From assembly GCA_945876865.1 (NCBI GenBank), contig CAMCPZ010000004.1, positions 1 through 59,398 of the forward strand: a stretch of 59,398 bases of DNA, given 5' to 3'. Source of the stretch: Bifidobacterium breve (GTDB taxonomy: Bacteria > Actinomycetota > Actinomycetes > Nanopelagicales > Nanopelagicaceae). Shown piece after piece: positions 14,404 to 24,217 of the stretch. A model generated the notes under the pieces. It saw only the letters and a program-made list of their open reading frames with translations. It did no database searches and had not been told where the DNA came from. Within the stretch, counting starts at the first letter, position 1. Each line of letters begins with the position of its first letter. A program made the position numbers and the translations under genes.

Positions 14404-15135
14404 GTGAAGCGCTTTTTTAATCCAGTCTCACTTCTACAGAGTTTCATCGCATTGGTTCTAGTAGCGGTATGTTTATTCGCTGCCCAATGGCAATTTAGTA
14501 GAGGCGCAAGTCAATCAGCAACAAACAGAGTCATTTCAGCAAATTTAGATTTACCTAGTCTTACTATGGCTGACATTGAGAATTTGGATCCCGTAAATAA
14601 CCAGTGGCGCAAAATAACCTTGCAGGGCAATTTCTCTCAAGATAAGCAAGAGCTCGTTCGCAATCGATACTACGAAGGAAAGTTTGGATTTGAAGTTCTG
14701 ACCTTGTTCACTGCTTCCAATGGTGAAAATTTCTGGGTGGATCGGGGCTGGGTTGCAGCTGGTCCGAATGCGGCTACCCCTCCCGTAGTGGAGCCCATTT
14801 CGATTGAGAACTTAGAGATAATTGCTCGAATTAGATCCGAGAATTTAAGTCGGCAGTTGCAAGGATCGTTCTTTGTTACAAGAGCTTCTAACGAGAAACC
14901 CGAATCCATAACCAAACTTCAAGGTGTTGAAGCAAATGCTTATTACCTAGATCTACTGGGAAGTCCTGATGGAAAGGTGGAGCCGCTAACCGAAATCGAA
15001 TTGCCAGAACTATCGAATGGTCCGCATTATGCCTATGGGGTTCAGTGGTTGGCCTTCGCACTTCTTGTGATTATTGGAAGATTCTTACTGTTCCGTGAAA
15101 CCAAGAGATTGTCTCTGGTAAAGGTCGAAATATAA
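14404..15135 (+). CDS. SURF1-family cytochrome oxidase biogenesis protein
   Basis: Membrane protein needed for assembly of aa3-type cytochrome c oxidase, thought to help deliver heme a. The 243-residue protein has the SURF1 plan: a transmembrane helix near residues 10-27, an extracytoplasmic domain with FWVDRGWVAAG, and a second helix near residues 210-228 preceded by the HYAYGVQWLAFAL motif. The start is GTG three bases after the DUF3099 gene. Its last 51 bases overlap the 3' end of the ABC exporter gene on the other strand. Together with ctaA it shows that the cell makes heme-A oxidase. Confidence 0.88.
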   Translation: MKRFFNPVSLLQSFIALVLVAVCLFAAQWQFSRGASQSATNRVISANLDLPSLTMADIENLDPVNNQWRKITLQGNFSQDKQELVRNRYYEGKFGFEVLTLFTASNGENFWVDRGWVAAGPNAATPPVVEPISIENLEIIARIRSENLSRQLQGSFFVTRASNEKPESITKLQGVEANAYYLDLLGSPDGKVEPLTEIELPELSNGPHYAYGVQWLAFALLVIIGRFLLFRETKRLSLVKVEI

Positions 15136-16956
15136 ACCGCCTTTTGCCACTAGTTCATCATGCTTTCCTGATTCAACTATCTTTCCGTTCTCTAAAACTA
15201 AAATTTGATCTGCTTGGACAATTGTTGATAGTCGGTGTGCGATGACGATGCTTGTTCTCCCCGCCAAGGCGCTAGCAAGAGCGTTCTGGACCAAGGCCTC
15301 ATTCTCGGAATCTAAATGTGCTGTTGCCTCATCGAGAACAACAATCTGAGGCTTCTTCAACAACAACCTGGCAATCGCCAATCGTTGTTTCTCACCGCCA
15401 GATAATCTGTGCCCTCGCTCGCCAACTACGGTGTTCAAGCCATTTGGAAGTGTTCGAATGAATTCACCAATTTGCGCAGCATCACATGCCGACCACATTT
15501 CACTTTCTGTGGCATCTAACTTTGCATAGCGAAGATTCTCAGCAATGCTCTCATGAAGCATATGAGAATCTTGCGTGACGATTCCAATTAGAGATCGAAG
15601 TTCAATAATGGTTGTGTCTCGAACATCAACTCCGTTAATTTTTATCGCACCTTCTGTTACATCGTAAAGCCTTGGTAACAAACCAGAGATCGTGCTCTTC
15701 CCGGCTCCTGAGGGGCCGACAATTGCTGTCAAAGTTCCAGGCTTGCAGATGAATGAAACCTCTTCTAGAACAGATTCGCTCTCAATCCCCTCGCCCACCG
15801 ATGCACCTTCTAGGGTGGCAATAGAAATTTCATTAGCTTTTGGATAAGTAAAGCTCACCTTAGAAAATTCGATTGTTGGCATAGCTTTAGGAATCGAAAT
15901 TGGATTCGCCGGATCGGTAACCATAGGCTTTAAATCCAAAACTTCAAACACTCTCTCAAAAGAAACAAGCGCTGACATGACATCTACTCGAATGTTTGAG
16001 AGCGAGGTAAGCGGACCGTATAAACGAGCAAGAAGCGCTGTAATCGCAAGCAGAGTTCCAATGGTTATTTCTTTATTTATGGCTAAGTGGCCACCAATTC
16101 CGTAGGCGAAAGAAGTTGCGATTGCTGCAACTGAAGTCATAGCTATAAAGAACACCCGATTAAGCATCGCAATCTTTATTCCCATGTCTGCAACACGTCG
16201 CGCTTTACCTCTAAAATTGCTACCTTCGGCAATCCGATCTCCGTATAGCGAGACCAAAAGTGCACCGGAAACGTTGAATCGTTCAGTCATGGTCGAAGAC
16301 ATTTCAGCATTCAAGTCAAAGGATTGTCTGGTGTAAATGGCAAGCTTTCTGCCAATCCATTTTGTCGGCACAATAAAAACAGGAAGAAGAATCAGGGATA
16401 CCAAAGTTATCTGCCAAGAGAGTGTCAGCATTGCAATTACAACCAAGAGTAAAGTTAGTGAATTACTTACTATCCCAGAGAGCGTCGATGTAAAAGCTTG
16501 CTGGGCGCCAATCACATCGCTGTTGATCCGAGAAATAAGCGAGCCGGTCTGAGTTCTTGTAAAGAATGCAATTGACTGCTTCTGGACATGTTCGAAGACT
16601 TGACTACGAAGATCGTAAATAAGACCCTCGCCGATCCGACTTGAGAACCATCGACCCAACATGCTAAATGCTGCATCTGCAATTGCTAGCGCTGCGACAA
16701 TGGCTGCTAATCGTGTGACCACATCGGGGCGACCAGGAACTACTCCATCATCGACCAACGAGCGTAATAACAGCGGTGTAGCAACAACTAATATCGCATC
16801 GATAATGACTGTGAAAATGAAGATAGCTAGAAATTTTCGATACGGAAGTGCGAAACTAAAAATTCTTTTTAGGGTTCCGGCCTTTAACTTTTGGTGCTTA
16901 ACCGATTGATCTGAACTCATCGATCTTAAGGCCATCCACTGGCCATGCATCGACAC
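15085..16956 (-). CDS. ABC exporter, fused permease and ATPase, joined to suf operon
   Basis: Half-transporter of the ABCB/MsbA type, 623 residues, working as a dimer. Six hydrophobic segments fill residues 40-330, followed by a nucleotide-binding domain with Walker A GPSGAGKST, signature LSGGEKQRLAIARLLL, Walker B VVLDEATAHLD and a switch histidine in IVIAHRL. It begins three bases after sufT on the same strand and so looks like the last gene of the suf operon. Substrate is unknown; the mitochondrial Atm1 analogy (export of a sulfur compound linked to Fe-S assembly) is a hypothesis only. Start is uncertain: ATGs at 16950, 16935 and 16920 are alternatives. It overlaps the SURF1 gene by 51 bases tail to tail. 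Confidence 0.9.
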   Translation of the reverse strand: MSMHGQWMALRSMSSDQSVKHQKLKAGTLKRIFSFALPYRKFLAIFIFTVIIDAILVVATPLLLRSLVDDGVVPGRPDVVTRLAAIVAALAIADAAFSMLGRWFSSRIGEGLIYDLRSQVFEHVQKQSIAFFTRTQTGSLISRINSDVIGAQQAFTSTLSGIVSNSLTLLLVVIAMLTLSWQITLVSLILLPVFIVPTKWIGRKLAIYTRQSFDLNAEMSSTMTERFNVSGALLVSLYGDRIAEGSNFRGKARRVADMGIKIAMLNRVFFIAMTSVAAIATSFAYGIGGHLAINKEITIGTLLAITALLARLYGPLTSLSNIRVDVMSALVSFERVFEVLDLKPMVTDPANPISIPKAMPTIEFSKVSFTYPKANEISIATLEGASVGEGIESESVLEEVSFICKPGTLTAIVGPSGAGKSTISGLLPRLYDVTEGAIKINGVDVRDTTIIELRSLIGIVTQDSHMLHESIAENLRYAKLDATESEMWSACDAAQIGEFIRTLPNGLNTVVGERGHRLSGGEKQRLAIARLLLKKPQIVVLDEATAHLDSENEALVQNALASALAGRTSIVIAHRLSTIVQADQILVLENGKIVESGKHDELVAKGGLYFDLYQRQSLGFTEQ

Positions 16957-16959
16957 TAA

Positions 16960-17280
16960 TTAAACCGTGAACCCAATCGCCCGCAGTTGCTCGCGACCAT
17001 CATCAGAAATTTTTCCTGGACCCCAAGGTGGCATCCAAACCCAATTGATTTTTACATCAGAAGTTATATCAGCCAATACCTGGTGAGTCTGATCCTCAAT
17101 CACGTCTTGCAGTGGGCAAGCCGCTGAAGTTAGCGTCATATCGAGAATCGCAACGTTATTTTCATCAAGACGCATGTCATAAACCAGACCAAGATCAATT
17201 ACATTGATACCCAATTCTGGATCTATCACATCTTTCATGGCCTCTGTTATGTCATCCAAAGTTGTATTAGCGCTGCTCAT
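16960..17280 (-). CDS. sufT: SufT / MIP18-family Fe-S assembly protein
   Basis: Small DUF59/MIP18 protein (106 residues) that helps mature Fe-S proteins, probably at the carrier or insertion step. The family pattern is clear: TEAMKDVIDPELGINVIDLGLVYD at the N-terminus, the conserved cysteine in LTSAACPLQDVIEDQ, and the C-terminal WMPPWGPGKISDDGREQLRAIGF. It lies eight bases after sufU and three before the exporter gene, the normal position in actinobacterial suf operons. PaaD-like annotation is the usual alternative but the suf context decides it. Confidence 0.93.
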   Translation of the reverse strand: MSSANTTLDDITEAMKDVIDPELGINVIDLGLVYDMRLDENNVAILDMTLTSAACPLQDVIEDQTHQVLADITSDVKINWVWMPPWGPGKISDDGREQLRAIGFTV

Positions 17281-17288
17281 ATTTCTCC

Positions 17289-17726
17289 TTAGTTTTTCGA
17301 ACTCTGAATTGCTGCATCTTTAAAAGCCATCCACCCTAATAAGGCACATTTTATACGAGCCGGGAACTTGGAGACACCAGCCAACGCTACGCCATCTTCA
17401 AGAACATCTTCATTACCAGCCATAGTTCCCTTGCTGCTCATCAGGTCAGAGAAAGATTCAACTATCTTGAGGGCTTCTTCCAGATTTTTACCGGTCATTA
17501 AATCACTGGCTATCGAAGTGCTTGCCTGCGAAATAGAGCAGCCAACGCCTTCCCAAGAAACGTTAGTGACAATTCCATCAGTTATGTTCACATTCAACGT
17601 TATCTCATCGCCACAACTTGGATTAACGTGATGGACCTGCGCCGTAAATGTCGGGCTCAACTTCTTATTCAAAGGGTGCTTGTAGTGATCGAGAATCACT
17701 TCCTGATATAACGAATCAAGTTCCAT
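17289..17726 (-). CDS. sufU: SufU-type sulfur transfer/zinc protein
   Basis: Accepts persulfide sulfur from SufS for cluster building. The 145-residue protein has the three conserved cysteines of the SufU/IscU family (NPSCGDEITL, GVGCSISQAS, IKCALLGWMAF) and the SufU-specific insertion before the last one. The chosen ATG (MELDSLYQEVILDHYKHP) is the family start and lies one base after the sufS stop; an upstream in-frame ATG would add 14 residues inside sufS. Confidence 0.95.
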   Translation of the reverse strand: MELDSLYQEVILDHYKHPLNKKLSPTFTAQVHHVNPSCGDEITLNVNITDGIVTNVSWEGVGCSISQASTSIASDLMTGKNLEEALKIVESFSDLMSSKGTMAGNEDVLEDGVALAGVSKFPARIKCALLGWMAFKDAAIQSSKN

Positions 17727-17727
17727 G

Positions 17728-18984
17728 TTAAACCTTAAAGTATTTCTGAGCTTCGAGAATTGAATCAATCAAAGCATCGACATCAGCTTCATCGTTGTAG
17801 ACATAAAATGAAGCTCTCGTAGTTCCGACAAGTCCCAGCTTACGCATAAGTGGCCACGCACAATGGTGACCGGTTCGTACCGCAACGCCATATTGGTCTA
17901 AAACTTGACCAACATCATGTGGATGAATTCCTTCTATTGTGAAAGATATAACTGAACCGCGGTCAATATTGTTCTTAGGCCCTATTACTTCGACCTTATC
18001 CAATTGCAGAAATTTCTTAAGCGCGTAGGCAGTTAGATCCTGCTCGTGCTTTGCAACGTTGTCCATGCCTAGTTCATTCAAATAATTAATAGCGGCAGCA
18101 AAACCAACCGCCTGAGCCATATTTGGAACACCTGCTTCAAATCGCTTAGGTGACGCCGCCCATTTAGCTTCCGTCATTGTTACTGATTCAATCATCGAAC
18201 CACCCGTTAAAAATGGCTCCATTGAATTTAAGAACTCACTTCTCCCCCACAAAATTCCAATTCCTGTTGGGCCCAGAGCCTTATGTGCGGAGAAAGCCAG
18301 AAAATCTATTTCAAGCGCTTTAACGTCGATTGCAAAGTGAGGTGCTGACTGACAAGCATCAAGGACTACAACTGCACCTACTGAGTGCGCTCGCGAAACA
18401 ATATCCTTTATCGGAACGATCGTTCCTAATACATTTGATTGATGAGTTATCGCAACTATTTTCGTAGATGGATTAATCAATTCTTCAAGGTTGCTCAGAT
18501 CTAATCGACCTTCAGAGTCGACAGAGAACCAGACTAATTCGGCCCCGGTGCGCTTTGCTAACTGCTGCCAAGGAATCAGATTTGCATGATGTTCTATTTC
18601 TGAAACCACGATTCGGTCACCTGGTTTCAATGCAAAGCGCGAGCCATTTGCACTGTTTCCAAAAGAATATGCAAGGGCATTGATGCTTTCGGTGGCACTC
18701 TTGGTGAAAATTACTTCATCCAGTTCTGCATTAAGAAAATCGGCAAGGACCTGCCTTGCACCTTCATATGCAATGCTCGCTTCTTCAGCCAGTAAGTGCG
18801 CACCTCTATGAACAGCGGCATTACTGTGCTCATAAAAATTCCGTTCGGCATCTAAAACTTGGCGGGGTTTCTGACTTGTCGCGCCGCTGTCGAGATACAC
18901 CAGACGATTTCCACCTCGCATGACTTTGGAGAAGATTGGGAAATCTCTCCGAATCTCTGCTGGGGAAAATATAGGTTTCATCAA
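17728..18984 (-). CDS. sufS: Cysteine desulfurase SufS
   Basis: PLP enzyme that takes sulfur from cysteine as a persulfide. Group II desulfurase features are visible: the PLP lysine in FSAHKALGPTGIGILWG (about residue 235) and the active cysteine in RTGHHCAWPLM (about residue 375). At 418 residues it is full length. The start directly abuts the sufC stop and the product feeds SufU, encoded next. Confidence 0.97.
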   Translation of the reverse strand: MMKPIFSPAEIRRDFPIFSKVMRGGNRLVYLDSGATSQKPRQVLDAERNFYEHSNAAVHRGAHLLAEEASIAYEGARQVLADFLNAELDEVIFTKSATESINALAYSFGNSANGSRFALKPGDRIVVSEIEHHANLIPWQQLAKRTGAELVWFSVDSEGRLDLSNLEELINPSTKIVAITHQSNVLGTIVPIKDIVSRAHSVGAVVVLDACQSAPHFAIDVKALEIDFLAFSAHKALGPTGIGILWGRSEFLNSMEPFLTGGSMIESVTMTEAKWAASPKRFEAGVPNMAQAVGFAAAINYLNELGMDNVAKHEQDLTAYALKKFLQLDKVEVIGPKNNIDRGSVISFTIEGIHPHDVGQVLDQYGVAVRTGHHCAWPLMRKLGLVGTTRASFYVYNDEADVDALIDSILEAQKYFKV

Positions 18985-19737
18985 TTATGCAGTTGTGTAC
19001 TCTGCATAACCCTTCTCTTCTAGCTTGTCAGCTAGTTCTGGGCCGCCTGCTTCAACGATCTTTCCTGCAGAAAAGACGTGCACGAAATCTGGCTTGATGT
19101 AGCGAAGGATTCTTGTGTAGTGAGTGATCAACATGATTCCTAAATCACTATTTCCCTTTACGCGATTTACTCCTTCGGAAACAATTCGAAGTGCGTCAAC
19201 GTCAAGTCCAGAATCAGTCTCATCCAAGATTGCAAACTTTGGTTTCAAGAGTTCAAGTTGCAGAATTTCATGGCGCTTCTTCTCGCCACCAGAGAATCCT
19301 TCATTCACATTTCGTTCCGCAAAATTTGGATCCATGTTAAGAGATTTCATTGCCTCTTTAACTTCCCCAACCCAGGTACGAACCTTGGGTGTTTCACCAC
19401 GTATTGCGGTTGCTGCTGTACGCAAGAAGTTTGTTACAGAAACGCCAGGAACTTCAACTGGATATTGCATCGCAAGAAATAGACCTGCTTTAGCTCGCTC
19501 ATCTACTGACATGGCTAACACGTCAACGCCATCGAGAGTGACTGATCCACCTGTGATTGTGTATTTTGGGTGTCCTGCAATTGAGTAAGCAAGAGTTGAT
19601 TTGCCTGAACCATTCGGTCCCATGATTGCGTGGGTTTCACCAGACTTGATTGTTAAATCAACGCCCTTAAGAATTTCTGTAAAGCCGGCCTCAGTTGCTA
19701 TCGATACTTGCAATCCCTTGATATCTAATGTGCTCAT
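18985..19737 (-). CDS. sufC: Fe-S assembly ATPase SufC
   Basis: Cytoplasmic ABC-type ATPase that drives the SufBCD scaffold. The 250-residue protein has Walker A GPNGSGKSTLAYSIAG, the SufC-type signature NEGFSGGEKKRHEILQL and Walker B FAILDETDSGLD. There are no membrane segments. It lies between the Rieske gene and sufS with a nine-base gap upstream that contains an AGGGGAG Shine-Dalgarno sequence. Confidence 0.97.
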   Translation of the reverse strand: MSTLDIKGLQVSIATEAGFTEILKGVDLTIKSGETHAIMGPNGSGKSTLAYSIAGHPKYTITGGSVTLDGVDVLAMSVDERAKAGLFLAMQYPVEVPGVSVTNFLRTAATAIRGETPKVRTWVGEVKEAMKSLNMDPNFAERNVNEGFSGGEKKRHEILQLELLKPKFAILDETDSGLDVDALRIVSEGVNRVKGNSDLGIMLITHYTRILRYIKPDFVHVFSAGKIVEAGGPELADKLEEKGYAEYTTA

Positions 19738-19746
19738 TTTCTCCCC

Positions 19747-20061
19747 TTAGCCTTCTGCAGATTTTCTGCTGGAAATAGTTAATTCATCGCCATTGCGTTT
19801 TACTTCGAAAGTTTCAACTGGAATTGATGCTGGCGGAGTTGCTACTTCCCCAGTCCTGAGATCGAACTCGGCGCCGTGTAGCCAACATTCAATCTTGAAA
19901 TTAGTTACATCACCTTCAGATAGCGAAGCTTCCGAGTGCGAACACGTGTCAGCAATCGCAAAGACTTCGTCCCCGATTCGAGTAACACAAACCGGTGTCC
20001 CATCTAAATCAATTTTTACCGGCTTGCTATCTACAAGTGATTCAAATGAAATGTTGACCAT
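19747..20061 (-). CDS. Rieske [2Fe-2S] ferredoxin of the suf operon
   Basis: A 104-residue Rieske protein with the two cluster-binding boxes C-S-H (CSHSEASLSEG) and C-W-L-H (CWLHGAEFDLRTG). Small Rieske ferredoxins at this spot between sufD and sufC are common in Actinobacteria and are annotated as non-heme iron oxygenase ferredoxin subunits. A role as an electron donor during cluster assembly is plausible but not proven. It overlaps sufD by one base. Confidence 0.92.
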   Translation of the reverse strand: MVNISFESLVDSKPVKIDLDGTPVCVTRIGDEVFAIADTCSHSEASLSEGDVTNFKIECWLHGAEFDLRTGEVATPPASIPVETFEVKRNGDELTISSRKSAEG

Positions 20062-21146
20062 TACGCGCCAACCTTTGCAAGTTCGGCATCGATGCGATCC
20101 ATAAGGCGGTTTTCAATCTCTTCATCCTTGATTTTGCCGACAATTTCAGCAAAGAAACCACGAATAACAAGTCGTCTAGCAATCTCAGCTGGAATTCCGC
20201 GAGAAGAGAGATAGAAAAGTTGTTCATCATCAAAGCGACCAGTTGTGCTTGCGTGACCAGCGCCTACGATCTCGCCAGTTTCAATCTCTAGATTCGGAAC
20301 TGAATCTGCCCGAGCACCATCTGAAAGAAGTAAGTTTCGATTTAGTTCGTAAGTGTCAGTTCCTTCAGCATTTGAACGGATATACACATCCCCGATCCAA
20401 ACTGTGTGTGCTTTATCGCCAGCAAGAGCGCCCTTGTAATTTACCCGGCTCTTGGCATTAGGAACATTGTGATCGACATGAAGGCGATGTTCTAAGTGTT
20501 GACCGTCGGTCGCAAAATATAAGCCTTGTAAATCAGCGCTTGAACCAGGGCCACTGTATTCAACGGTTGGCAATAACCTCACTAGAGATCCACCAACTGT
20601 TACAACTATCGAATTGAAAGTTGCATCCTTCGCGATAATTGCGTGCTGACGCCCAAGGTGAATAGCTTTGCTGCTCCACTCTTGAAGTGAGACAAAGGTG
20701 AGCGTTGAGCCTTGAGATAATTCAAATTCAATCTCATCTGACAGAATCGCATTGCCAGAATTATTGAGAATTATCGTTGCATGTGAGTTAGCGCCGCAGG
20801 TGATTAAGGTGCGAGACGCTTGAGGCTTACCAGTTAGATTTGCACGTTCCAGAAGCAGAGGTCGTTCTAACTGGGCATTTGCAGCTATTTCAATATGAGA
20901 AACTTCGGTTACAACTTCACGAGCTCGGATAGTGGCCAAATCATCACTTGTCGAAATCGCAGGTTGATCGCCCACACTTTTAACAGTTAGTTTCACACCA
21001 TTTTGCGAGTTGACTGTCTTGATGCTGTTGACGCTACTAACTGCGACAGCCGAATCAAGCAAGCCACCGACTCTGGCAAGAGGAGTGAAGCGCCAAGCTT
21101 CTTCCCTACCGGTTGGTGCTAAATAATTTGTGGTTAAAGTGCTCAT
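20061..21146 (-). CDS. sufD: Fe-S scaffold subunit SufD
   Basis: Partner of SufB in the SufBC2D scaffold, 361 residues with the right-handed beta-helix core. The C-terminal block GHASTTGRFDDEQLFYLSSRGI is the SufB/SufD family signature. It overlaps sufB and the Rieske gene by one base at each end, indicating tightly coupled translation. Confidence 0.95.
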   Translation of the reverse strand: MSTLTTNYLAPTGREEAWRFTPLARVGGLLDSAVAVSSVNSIKTVNSQNGVKLTVKSVGDQPAISTSDDLATIRAREVVTEVSHIEIAANAQLERPLLLERANLTGKPQASRTLITCGANSHATIILNNSGNAILSDEIEFELSQGSTLTFVSLQEWSSKAIHLGRQHAIIAKDATFNSIVVTVGGSLVRLLPTVEYSGPGSSADLQGLYFATDGQHLEHRLHVDHNVPNAKSRVNYKGALAGDKAHTVWIGDVYIRSNAEGTDTYELNRNLLLSDGARADSVPNLEIETGEIVGAGHASTTGRFDDEQLFYLSSRGIPAEIARRLVIRGFFAEIVGKIKDEEIENRLMDRIDAELAKVGA

Positions 21147-22564
21147 TAACCAACTGCACCTTCCATCTGCATTTCAATTAAACGGTTAAGTTCCAGTGCG
21201 TATTCCATTGGAAGTTCGCGAGCGATTGGCTCGATGAAGCCACGAACAATCATGGCCATAGCTTCATCTTCGCCTAGACCACGCGACATCAAATAGAAGA
21301 GTTGATCATCGCTAATCTTCGAAACCGTCGCTTCGTGACCCATCGAAACATCATCTTCACGAACATCGACATAAGGGTAGGTGTCTGATCTAGAAATTGA
21401 ATCGACAAGTAGCGCATCACACTTCACTGTTGATTTAGAGTGATGAGCACCCTCGTTTATTTGAACAAGTCCGCGATACGAAGTTCGGCCACCTCCGCGC
21501 GCTACTGACTTAGAAATAATTGTTGATGAAGTGTGTGGGGCTGCGTGAACCATCTTTGCACCAGCATCTTGATGTTGACCTTCGCCTGCAAAAGCAATTG
21601 AAAGAGTCTCGCCCTTTGAATGTGGGCCCATCAACATAACAGCTGGATACTTCATGGTTACCTTGGAACCGATGTTTCCATCAATCCATTCCATGGTTGC
21701 ACCTTCAGCACATGTAGCACGCTTTGTTACTAGGTTGTAAACGTTGTTCGACCAGTTCTGAATAGTCGTATAACGAACACGGGCACCCTTTTTGATAATA
21801 ATTTCTACTACTGCACTGTGTAGAGAATCTGAAGAGTAAATAGGCGCTGTGCAACCTTCAACATAATGCACATATGAATCTTCATCCGCAATAATCAAGG
21901 TGCGTTCGAACTGACCCATATTTTCGGTATTGATGCGGAAATATGCCTGCAACGGAATATCAACCTTTACGCCCTTTGGAATATAGATAAATGAACCGCC
22001 AGACCATACAGAAGTATTCAGCGCTGCGAACTTGTTATCGCCAACCGGGATAACAGTTCCGAAATACTCCTTGAACAATTCTTCATGTTCACGAAGTCCA
22101 GTATCGGTGTCAACAAAGATAACTCCCTGAGCTTCTAAATCTTCACGGATCGAGTGATAAACAACTTCTGATTCATATTGAGCCGCAACACCTGAAACTA
22201 GACGTTGCTTCTCTGCCTCAGGAATTCCTAGACGATCGTAAGTATTTTTAATGTCATCAGGTAGGTCTTCCCATGATGTTGCCTGCTTCTCGGTTGATCG
22301 CACGAAATACTTGATTGTGTCGAAGAAAATTCCAGTTAAGTCAGATCCCCAAGTAGGCATTGGCTTCTTCTCGAAAAGGCTTAAACCTTTTAGTCGCAAA
22401 TCCAACATCCATTGCGGTTCGCTCTTCTTTGATGAAATATCGCGTACAACTTCTTCGTTTAGACCACGGCGAGAGTTAGCACCCACATCGTTCTTGTCTG
22501 ACCAGCCGAATTCATAATTTCCGATTCCCTCTAGTCCAGGGTTCTTTGCTAAAACATCACTCAT
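21146..22564 (-). CDS. sufB: Fe-S scaffold subunit SufB
   Basis: Main scaffold of the Suf system on which the cluster is built, 472 residues. Conserved parts include [19 protein letters not shown], the [19 protein letters not shown] region with a conserved cysteine, and the C-terminal [21 protein letters not shown]. No intein interrupts it, unlike the mycobacterial SufB. It starts one base after the sufR stop. Confidence 0.97.
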
Positions 22565-22565
22565 A

Positions 22566-23240
22566 TTAAGCTCGCTTTCCGGATTTACTTAGGTTTTTTG
22601 GGTTTGGTATAAACGTGGTGCAAACACCGTCGCCATGAGCGATGGTGGCAAGTCTTTGAACGTGGGTACCGAGTAATTCGGAGAAGGCTTGGGTTTCAGC
22701 TTCACAGAGTTCTGGAAATTGTGATGCAACGTGAGCAATCGGACAATGATTTTGGCAAAGCTCTTCGCCAATTCCTTGGGAATGATTATTTGCTGCGTAA
22801 CCTTCGCCAGTTAAGAATGTTGCTAGCGCTTCGCTCTTCTCGCTTAGATTCTTCTTGTTAGCAAGAATCTGGGCTGCACGTTTCGTGATTTCTTCCGCGC
22901 GATTTCGAGCGAACTCTTTTACTAATGTCTTATCGCCCTTTGATGCCATAAATCGCAGAGCTGATACCGCCAGATCGTCATAAGTGTGTTCAAATTTTTC
23001 ACGACCAAGATCTGTCATAACAAAAACTTTTGATGGACGCCCACGTCCTCTTGAATCTTTTGCACTTGTGAATGGTTCACGAGCAGTCAAAACACCTTCA
23101 GCAATTAAGTTATCTAAATGCCTGCGAATTCCCGCCGGGGTTATGTGTAGCTTTGAAGCCAATGACACCGCAGTGGCGGGTCCATTTTCGAGGATGGCGC
23201 GAGCCACTAAATCACGGGTTCTGTCCTCGGTCTTTTTCAC
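22566..23240 (-). CDS. sufR: SufR, Fe-S sensing repressor of the suf operon
   Basis: DeoR/ArsR-like winged-helix regulator that binds a [4Fe-4S] cluster and represses suf genes when cluster supply is sufficient. The helix-turn-helix covers [20 protein letters not shown], and the cluster-binding cysteines are in [20 protein letters not shown] near the C-terminus. The start is uncertain. I favour GTG at 23240 ([15 protein letters not shown], 224 residues) because a SufR-type operator ends on this codon and so should lie in or before the promoter. The longer frame from ATG 23312 or TTG 23306 gives 22 to 24 more unconserved residues and would reach into the ctaA promoter. It leads the operon and overlaps nothing upstream. 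Confidence 0.88.
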
Positions 23241-23253
23241 AACATTATTGTTG
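23240..23253. promoter_or_regulatory. Probable SufR operator (CAAC-N6-GTTG)
   Basis: CAACATTATTGTTG is a 14-bp inverted repeat with arms CAACA/TGTTG. It fits the CAAC-N6-GTTG motif that I recall for SufR in Streptomyces. Its last base is the G of the proposed sufR GTG start, so the operator covers the position of a leaderless -10 (AACAAT, 23252-23247). The sequence and position are seen; binding is inferred. Confidence 0.72.
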
Positions 23254-23311
23254 CGTAATTCACCCAAACCCGCCACTCGGCGCACTGCCACAGGAGGAGA
23301 CTTCAAGCGCA

Positions 23312-23317
23312 TAGGCT
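23312..23317 (+). promoter_or_regulatory. ctaA -10 element, leaderless type (TAGGCT-N6-ATG)
   Basis: TAGGCT is followed by ACGAGC and the ctaA ATG. The site is part of the symmetric TAGGCTA, so the other strand offers TAGCCT six bases before an in-frame TTG of the sufR frame. Confidence 0.62.
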
Positions 23318-23323
23318 ACGAGC

Positions 23324-24217
23324 ATGAAGCTTCGTTTCACACTTTTCACCGCCTTGCTGGTTTTACAGGCGGGGTTGGTGGTAACAGGTGGTGCGGTTCG
23401 TTTATCCGGCGCCGGACTTGGATGTCCAACCTGGCCAGAGTGCGTGGATGGTTCAATCAAGCCAGTTATAGGGCAGGACGAAAGCCAATTACATGCCTGG
23501 ATCGAATTCGGCAACCGCTTGATCGCCTGGCTTATTCTGATTCTTGCTTTAGCGGCCTTAGTTTATATTTTTAAGAGATTGCGCGACCGCAGTGACTTTA
23601 AACGGTTGCGACTCTTAGCAATACTTCAAATTCTAGGATTTTTGGGACAAGTTGTTTTAGGTGGCATTACCGTTCTAACAAAGTTGAATCCAATTTCAGT
23701 ATCTGCCCACTTTGTTCTTACCCTTCCGCTAATCGCGGGGGCGCTAGCACTTCGTCACCGAGTTCTCGATCGCCCGGTTATTCAAGTGCTTCCAATGACA
23801 AGGAATTTAACTAAGGTTGTTACAACTTTAACTTTTATCGTGCTCCTCTTTGGCGTTGTTGTTACTGGAACTGGACCACATGCTGGTGACGCAGATGCCA
23901 AGCGATACCCATTTAATTTCCGCGCAGTTTCCTGGCTTCATGCTGATTCGGTAATCGTTCTTATCTCTTTAACAATTGCGCTTTACTTGGTCGTTAAAGT
24001 CTCAGAAACACCTGCGGTTAAGAAACTTTTCGGCCGCATGATTTTAATCTTTCTAGGCATATCACTTGGCCAAGGGGCTATTGGTTATTTGCAATACATC
24101 ACTGGGCTTCCCGCCTTAATAGTTGGAGCGCATTTACTGGGAGCAACGTTGGTTTGGATACATGGTTGGCGATTGAATCTAACGGCCCGATTAGAACAGG
24201 AAGTGAGAATCCAGTGA
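23324..24217 (+). CDS. ctaA: Heme A synthase (COX15/CtaA family)
   Basis: Membrane enzyme that oxidises the C8 methyl of heme O to the formyl group of heme A. The 297-residue protein has about eight hydrophobic helices, the N-terminal GAVRLSGAGLGCPTWPEC loop with paired cysteines, and the conserved histidines in SAHFVLTLPL, SWLHADSVIV and GAHLLGATLVWIHGW. The start is leaderless. The stop overlaps the tkt GTG start (GTGA). ctaA next to transketolase and divergent from suf is an arrangement shared with other Actinobacteria. Confidence 0.94.
   Translation: MKLRFTLFTALLVLQAGLVVTGGAVRLSGAGLGCPTWPECVDGSIKPVIGQDESQLHAWIEFGNRLIAWLILILALAALVYIFKRLRDRSDFKRLRLLAILQILGFLGQVVLGGITVLTKLNPISVSAHFVLTLPLIAGALALRHRVLDRPVIQVLPMTRNLTKVVTTLTFIVLLFGVVVTGTGPHAGDADAKRYPFNFRAVSWLHADSVIVLISLTIALYLVVKVSETPAVKKLFGRMILIFLGISLGQGAIGYLQYITGLPALIVGAHLLGATLVWIHGWRLNLTARLEQEVRIQ

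Follow-up and report, generated by a model that had tools for sequence, protein, structure and literature searches.

A predicted SufR operator on the sufR start codon and its copies at iron-importer genes in the order Nanopelagicales

We analyzed a 59,398-nucleotide stretch of DNA, here called the window (contig CAMCPZ010000004.1 of assembly GCA_945876865.1, placed by GTDB in the Nanopelagicaceae), in which a palindrome coincides with the start codon of sufR. Comparison of the site among relatives makes it likely that the palindrome is an autoregulatory SufR operator and that, in this order, SufR also controls iron importers, most likely in place of DtxR. The sufR operator by itself is ordinary and known in kind; the second copies at iron importers are the new part.

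The operator on the sufR start codon

The features of the window that bear on the operator are as follows.

23240..23253, minus strand: core of the predicted SufR operator, CAAC-N6-GTTG (CAACAATAATGTTG on the minus strand), kept in 24/24 congeners in which sufR was found
23235..23258, minus strand: extended operator TTACGCAACAATAATGTTGTGAAA, one mismatch against the pattern TTNCGCAAC-N6-GTTGCGNAA
23247..23252, minus strand: predicted -10 element AACAAT within the operator, assigned from sequence; Streptomyces avermitilis sufR has the same hexamer according to PMC11995493
23271..23276, minus strand: candidate -35 element GTGGCG, with an 18-nt spacer to the -10, placed from the sequence and the upstream listing
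23238..23240, minus strand: GTG start codon of sufR, in frame and in register with the box in 52/56 relatives, and probably also the transcription start (leaderless)
22566..23240, minus strand: sufR coding sequence from the GTG, 224 aa, with Cys 166/179/207 as C-X12-C-X27-C, plus Cys 162
21146..22564, minus strand: sufB, the first gene after sufR (TIGR01980, E = 1e-218)
20061..21146, minus strand: sufD (TIGR01981, E = 5e-73)
15085..20061, minus strand: the remaining, almost gapless collinear cluster, from reading frames: Rieske-type ferredoxin, SufC-, SufS-, SufU- and SufT-like proteins and an ABC exporter
23324..24217, plus strand: divergent ctaA (COX15-CtaA; PF02628, E = 7e-19)

The initial annotation had described a palindrome on the GTG at 23240-23253 with a leaderless -10, AACAAT, inside it, and both coordinates and sequence proved exact. 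CAACATTATTGTTG at this place is the sole exact CAAC-N6-GTTG in the window. Read on the minus strand as CAACAATAATGTT followed by GTGAAAAAG, the palindrome has as its final G (23240) the G of the sufR GTG, and AACAAT stands at -12 to -7 relative to that codon. TGGC-like candidate -35 sequences recur upstream of sufR in many congeners.

That the site is of the SufR type, as annotated, is supported by its retention at the same place in relatives and by the protein itself. The gene heads a suf operon (sufR-sufB-sufD and collinear genes), and its product has a predicted winged helix DNA-binding domain (PF13412, 26.0 bits against a cut-off of 21.9, residues 14-51) and the cysteine spacing C-X12-C-X(25-29)-C found in 56/56 relatives, in the window exactly C-X12-C-X27-C. 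The match to TIGR02702 (NCBIfam SufR_cyano; E = 8e-20, 71 bits) is under its cut-off of 179, and the window SufR is homologous to this cyanobacterial equivalog but not a member of it; among solved structures, no match to SufR was found. Among the cluster names, the Rieske-type ferredoxin comes from matches, the ABC exporter from PF00664 and PF00005, and SufC, SufS, SufU and SufT from reading the sequences alone. One SufR locus, 92% identical, is deposited as 'Bifidobacterium breve' (MAG MH-09jul19-317) and apparently belongs to a mislabelled freshwater actinobacterium.

We located sufR in 56/60 genomes and compared the upstream regions of these. The exact CAAC-N6-GTTG precedes sufR in 24/24 congeneric loci (L001-L024); in 23 its end falls on a GTG in frame with the gene, whereas in L024 no such GTG was found. 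Of ten other genera in the family, five have the exact form as well, and so does G054, a 9.2 Mb genome from the class. Class-wide the core drifts (e.g., GGTAACAT..GTTGTG or GACACT..GTTGTG) and TTGTG still follows directly and in frame in 52/56 sufR loci, so that the conservation of palindrome with GTG, proposed earlier as a check, was found both among the congeners, as box, and across the class, as register. Since five genera of the family (G028, G029, G030, G031 and G035) have an altered left half, e.g., TTACGACAC, the strict form is not universal in the family. The longest reading frame begins at the ATG at 23312, exactly 24 codons upstream of the GTG, and the annotation's relocation of the start by that distance agrees with the relatives: in L005, L021, L025, L030, L031, L036, L051 and others, the GTG is the sole in-frame start after an upstream stop and must thus be the start in those loci. 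A start farther upstream is ruled out wherever such a stop precedes the next start codon. No Shine-Dalgarno sequence is evident before the GTG in the upstream regions compared, and sufR is predicted to be leaderless, with its -10 and start inside the operator.

Motif rarity contributes nothing to this assignment. The genome scan suggested in the initial annotation gave 36 exact places for the bare 14-mer in the 1.25 Mb genome, compared to 74 for a reversed control; without its flanks, CAAC-N6-GTTG is not enriched, and we dropped it as a scanning pattern. We take the operator as real because of its position and conservation. Separately, matches with up to one mismatch are somewhat over-represented in the window (36, compared to 23 ± 4.8 expected), for no obvious reason.

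The comparison thus confirms the palindrome as a genuine predicted operator on the sufR start codon, in an arrangement already known in Streptomyces. In S. avermitilis (Cheng et al. 2020, as cited in PMC11995493), SufR binds a CAAC-N6-GTTG whose first part covers the -10 AACAAT and whose last G is the transcription start, and sufR heads the operon sufRBDCSU, a layout like the one here. The Fe-S feedback on the suf operon that the initial annotation deduced would follow by analogy from the known role of SufR. The palindrome might then be an operator for suf autoregulation and nothing further, a reading for which both the S. avermitilis layout and the statement in PMC11995493 that other SufR targets are not known could be cited; as it leaves the copies at iron importers in 266/296 genomes (control 0) unexplained, we consider it highly improbable. 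To the extent that sequence can tell, the operator at sufR, its start codon and the feedback stand as annotated; the scope given to the operator was too small, a second copy lying at an iron importer outside the window.

Copies of the extended operator at iron importers

Across the family, the conserved unit is longer than the core and reads TTACGCAAC-N6-GTTG(T/C)G(A/T)AA. At sufR it takes the form TTACGCAAC-N6-GTTGTGAAA, whose outer positions were invariant in the 33 sufR boxes compared, a descriptive count since these boxes were gathered with a pattern fixing most of the positions. This is nearly the perfect palindrome TTACGCAAC-N6-GTTGCGTAA, from which the right half departs by changes that include the C-to-T creating the GTG start; the sufR box is never perfect. 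It may be regarded as an operator-start codon compromise, in which the perfect half-site GTTGCGTAA has become GTTGTGAAA and the change supplies the GTG.

A search with the extended form gave two sites in almost all family genomes, the one at sufR and one other. In the whole order, a match to TTACGCAAC-N6-GTTGCGTAA with at most one mismatch was present in 266/296 genomes (102/108 of those of high quality) and in 0/296 with the reversed control, a count that leaves out the sufR site, which has two mismatches to this sequence. The second copy is usually perfect and, in the genomes that have it, almost always single. Six high-quality genomes lack a box at this threshold (G031, G064, G065, G292, G294 and G100), and the first three, all of genus g6, have one with two mismatches.

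Iron-uptake genes follow nearly all of the boxes examined. We examined 78 of the roughly 270 non-sufR sites; 75 precede genes for FTR1 or FbpA and 3 are at contig ends. Among the 37 family genomes searched first, all non-sufR sites with no more than one mismatch to TTNCGCAAC-N6-GTTGCGNAA are upstream of FTR1/EfeU or an FbpA-type Fe(III)-binding protein; 40 further sites from other genera lie before FTR1 (18), before FbpA (19) or at contig ends (3). Even with two mismatches allowed, recurrent sites in the 37 family genomes were confined to sufR and the iron importers. The genome from which the window comes has its second site at G000:C15:14684-14707, upstream of fbpA. Where we read further, the FbpA gene is followed by its permease and ATPase. 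The FTR1 proteins belong to PF03239 and score above the cut-off of the NCBIfam EfeU equivalog NF041756, and the FbpA protein matches solved ferric-binding proteins with E = 8e-71. As a binder of 2-aminoethylphosphonate or thiamine, the FbpA-like protein was rejected, its NCBIfam scores being far under the cut-offs and the matching solved structures being ferric-binding. FTR1 was not found in G000, G009, G024 and G034 (G009 and G034 being 98% complete), where the box is at fbpA instead; an unrelated importer has thus either retained the box or acquired it anew. In L179 (G005:C41), the box precedes a divergent FTR1-like permease (VIPTLVIFLREGIEASMIVAILLAYL...) unlike the EfeU of its congeners, so this operator may also serve a third lineage of importers.

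The boxes appear to occupy different promoter elements. Before FTR1, the right half TTGCGT(AA) can be placed as the -35; TAGGCT comes 17-18 nt downstream and the ATG about 7 nt beyond that, so that FTR1 would be leaderless with the box over its -35. Before fbpA, we would place the same -35, a -10 like TAGAGT or TAGGCT and a longer leader, and at sufR the box would cover the -10 and +1. That one symmetric sequence lies over different elements points to a single DNA-binding protein and not to promoter constraint. Were the palindrome simply a by-product of a leaderless promoter and a GTG AAA AAG start, binding no protein, the overlap of its left half with the -10 and of its right half with the start codon would be accounted for; the invariant TTACG arm upstream of the -10 and the same 24-bp symmetric sequence over the -35 of iron genes, free of both constraints, would not, and we give this explanation almost no credence. 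In the window, TAGGCT also stands about 6 nt before the ATG of ctaA (window 23312-23326, plus strand), which is probably leaderless too, like FTR1 in relatives; these genomes may hold many leaderless genes preceded by TAGGCT. We found no evidence that the sufR operator controls ctaA, whose own -10 TAGGCT is about 54 bp away.

The two kinds of box are linked by their left half, TTACGCAAC, which is identical in 29/33 sufR boxes and nearly all iron boxes. The FTR1 box of G292 (L196, 1450-1473), TTACGCAAC-AGTTGA-GTTGTGAAA, has the sufR-type right half, with no start codon requiring it. Against a shared SufR, the sufR and iron sites do not change together, because five genera (L029-L033, in G029, G030, G028, G035 and G031) show TTACGACAC or TTAGGACAC as an altered left half at sufR and keep a perfect or near-perfect iron box; autoregulation could possibly be weakened there relative to importer control.

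Outside the order, matches occurred in 11/354 class genomes, of which 8 belong to a single genus (g53). In g53 (L255-L262, around position 1501), a conserved TTACGCA-N10-TGCGTAA lies about 140-150 bp upstream of the gene for a geranylgeranyl-reductase-like FAD enzyme, with one CAAC/GTTG half broken. This could be a weak SufR site or the site of another regulator; with its broken core and unrelated gene, we rejected it as an extension of the iron regulon.

DtxR loss and other candidate regulators

The usual regulator of such genes in Actinobacteria is DtxR/IdeR, which has the same kind of target genes and differs in sensing Fe(II) and in its box, TTAGG..CCTAA. IdeR governs iron uptake in M. tuberculosis. 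We found DtxR (PF02742) in 20/23 class outgroups but, within the order, in just 4/296 genomes, which all belong to genus g6. The absence (292/296) was counted partly in incomplete genomes; among high-quality ones, 105/108 lack the gene. Most of the class genomes sampled from outside the order retain DtxR, and nearly all are without the iron box. Since the order, one sister genus excepted, has lost DtxR/IdeR, SufR most likely replaced it as the regulator of iron uptake.

Genus g6 may preserve how this happened. In its FTR1 promoters, a SufR-type box covers the -35 and a DtxR-like one (e.g., GTAGGTTAGGCATACCTAA) covers the -10 or lies near it; the two occur together in each of the three genomes of g6 where FTR1 could be located (L198, L199 and L201). 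DtxR-like sequences also stand in several FTR1 promoters of the outgroups, where no SufR box is close by. The SufR tree places G031 (g6) as the sister of all 33 other members of the family (support 100/95). The simplest order of events would be DtxR control, then the addition of a SufR box and then the loss of DtxR. We thus think it likely that in Nanopelagicales SufR replaced DtxR/IdeR through a visible dual-box intermediate, with the operator at whichever importer is used, FTR1 or FbpABC. If this is true, one sister genus preserves an intermediate stage, in which a single promoter has both a DtxR-like box and a SufR box, and a whole order of very abundant freshwater bacteria (acI-type) reads iron sufficiency from an Fe-S cluster and not from free iron.

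We also considered other binders of the iron boxes. Regulators of the Rrf2 family (IscR/RirA) were rejected, full-length members being present in just 3/37 family genomes. Fur-family proteins, one or two of them, are encoded in most family genomes; by neighbours named from reading the sequences, one such gene adjoins a ZIP-like permease (G000 and G035) and one a YgfZ/GcvT-like gene (G027 and G035). The homologue beside the YgfZ/GcvT-like gene is the chief competing candidate and might bind the iron boxes while SufR regulates only itself and suf, the likeness of the boxes being due to chance or shared ancestry. This YgfZ/GcvT-like gene, which has Fe-S links, adjoins the sole Fur found in the complete genome G027. 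In Streptomyces, Nur, a regulator of the Fur family, recognizes GCAA/TTGC half-sites that stand about 3 nt nearer to each other than those of the box; the GCAA/TTGC half-sites of the iron boxes resemble the Nur box apart from that spacing. Set against a Fur regulator are the identity of CAAC-N6-GTTG with the SufR motif reported in cyanobacteria and Streptomyces, the 9-bp left half common to sufR and iron boxes, the sufR-type right half at FTR1 of G292, and the restriction of recurrent sites with up to two mismatches to sufR and iron importers in 37 family genomes. Together, these make Fur control of the importers unlikely, and we retain SufR as the probable binder.

Proposed mechanism and known SufR systems

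The boxes, their positions, conservation and gene contexts, and the distribution of DtxR were read directly from the genomes; from them we infer SufR binding at the iron boxes, repression, the sensing step and the evolutionary order. A [4Fe-4S] SufR dimer would bind TTACGCAAC-N6-GTTGTGAAA, covering the -10, transcription start and GTG of the leaderless sufR-suf operon, and would block RNA polymerase in autorepression. On loss of the cluster, by shortage of iron or Fe-S or by oxidation, apo-SufR would release the DNA. The second target would be the operator copy over the -35 of the single FTR1/EfeU gene, or at an FbpABC-type transporter where FTR1 was not found, so that Fe-S shortage would induce Fe-S assembly and iron import together by the same signal. 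The takeover from DtxR would have passed through a stage at which the same promoter held both boxes. In open-access papers, we found no earlier report of SufR control of iron uptake or of such operator copies at iron importers.

Known SufR systems share parts of this layout and differ in their reported targets. M. tuberculosis Rv1460 (SufR) is leaderless, its start lying 72 nt downstream of the annotated one, at position +73 (PMC6034842); the 24-codon shift and the cysteine spacing (203/216/244) are the same as here, whereas its ChIP-seq sites lie upstream of a few other genes, which are not iron importers (PMC6034842). For S. avermitilis, unlike our proposal for this order, no iron importer target is reported in PMC11995493. 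Cyanobacterial SufR likewise uses CAAC-N6-GTTG (PMC8593673, PMC13421787), and Synechocystis sll0088 SufR is a [4Fe-4S] repressor of sufBCDS and itself; there, however, sufR is divergent from sufBCDS, and the further target listed is ftrC (PMC13421787), not iron importers. RirA and IscR of Alphaproteobacteria resemble the proposed SufR role, as Fe-S cluster proteins regulating iron uptake, but are of the unrelated Rrf2 family, full-length members of which are absent from 34/37 family genomes here. If SufR does control iron uptake in Nanopelagicales, it would be an independent solution with an Fe-S sensor, built on another protein family than RirA.
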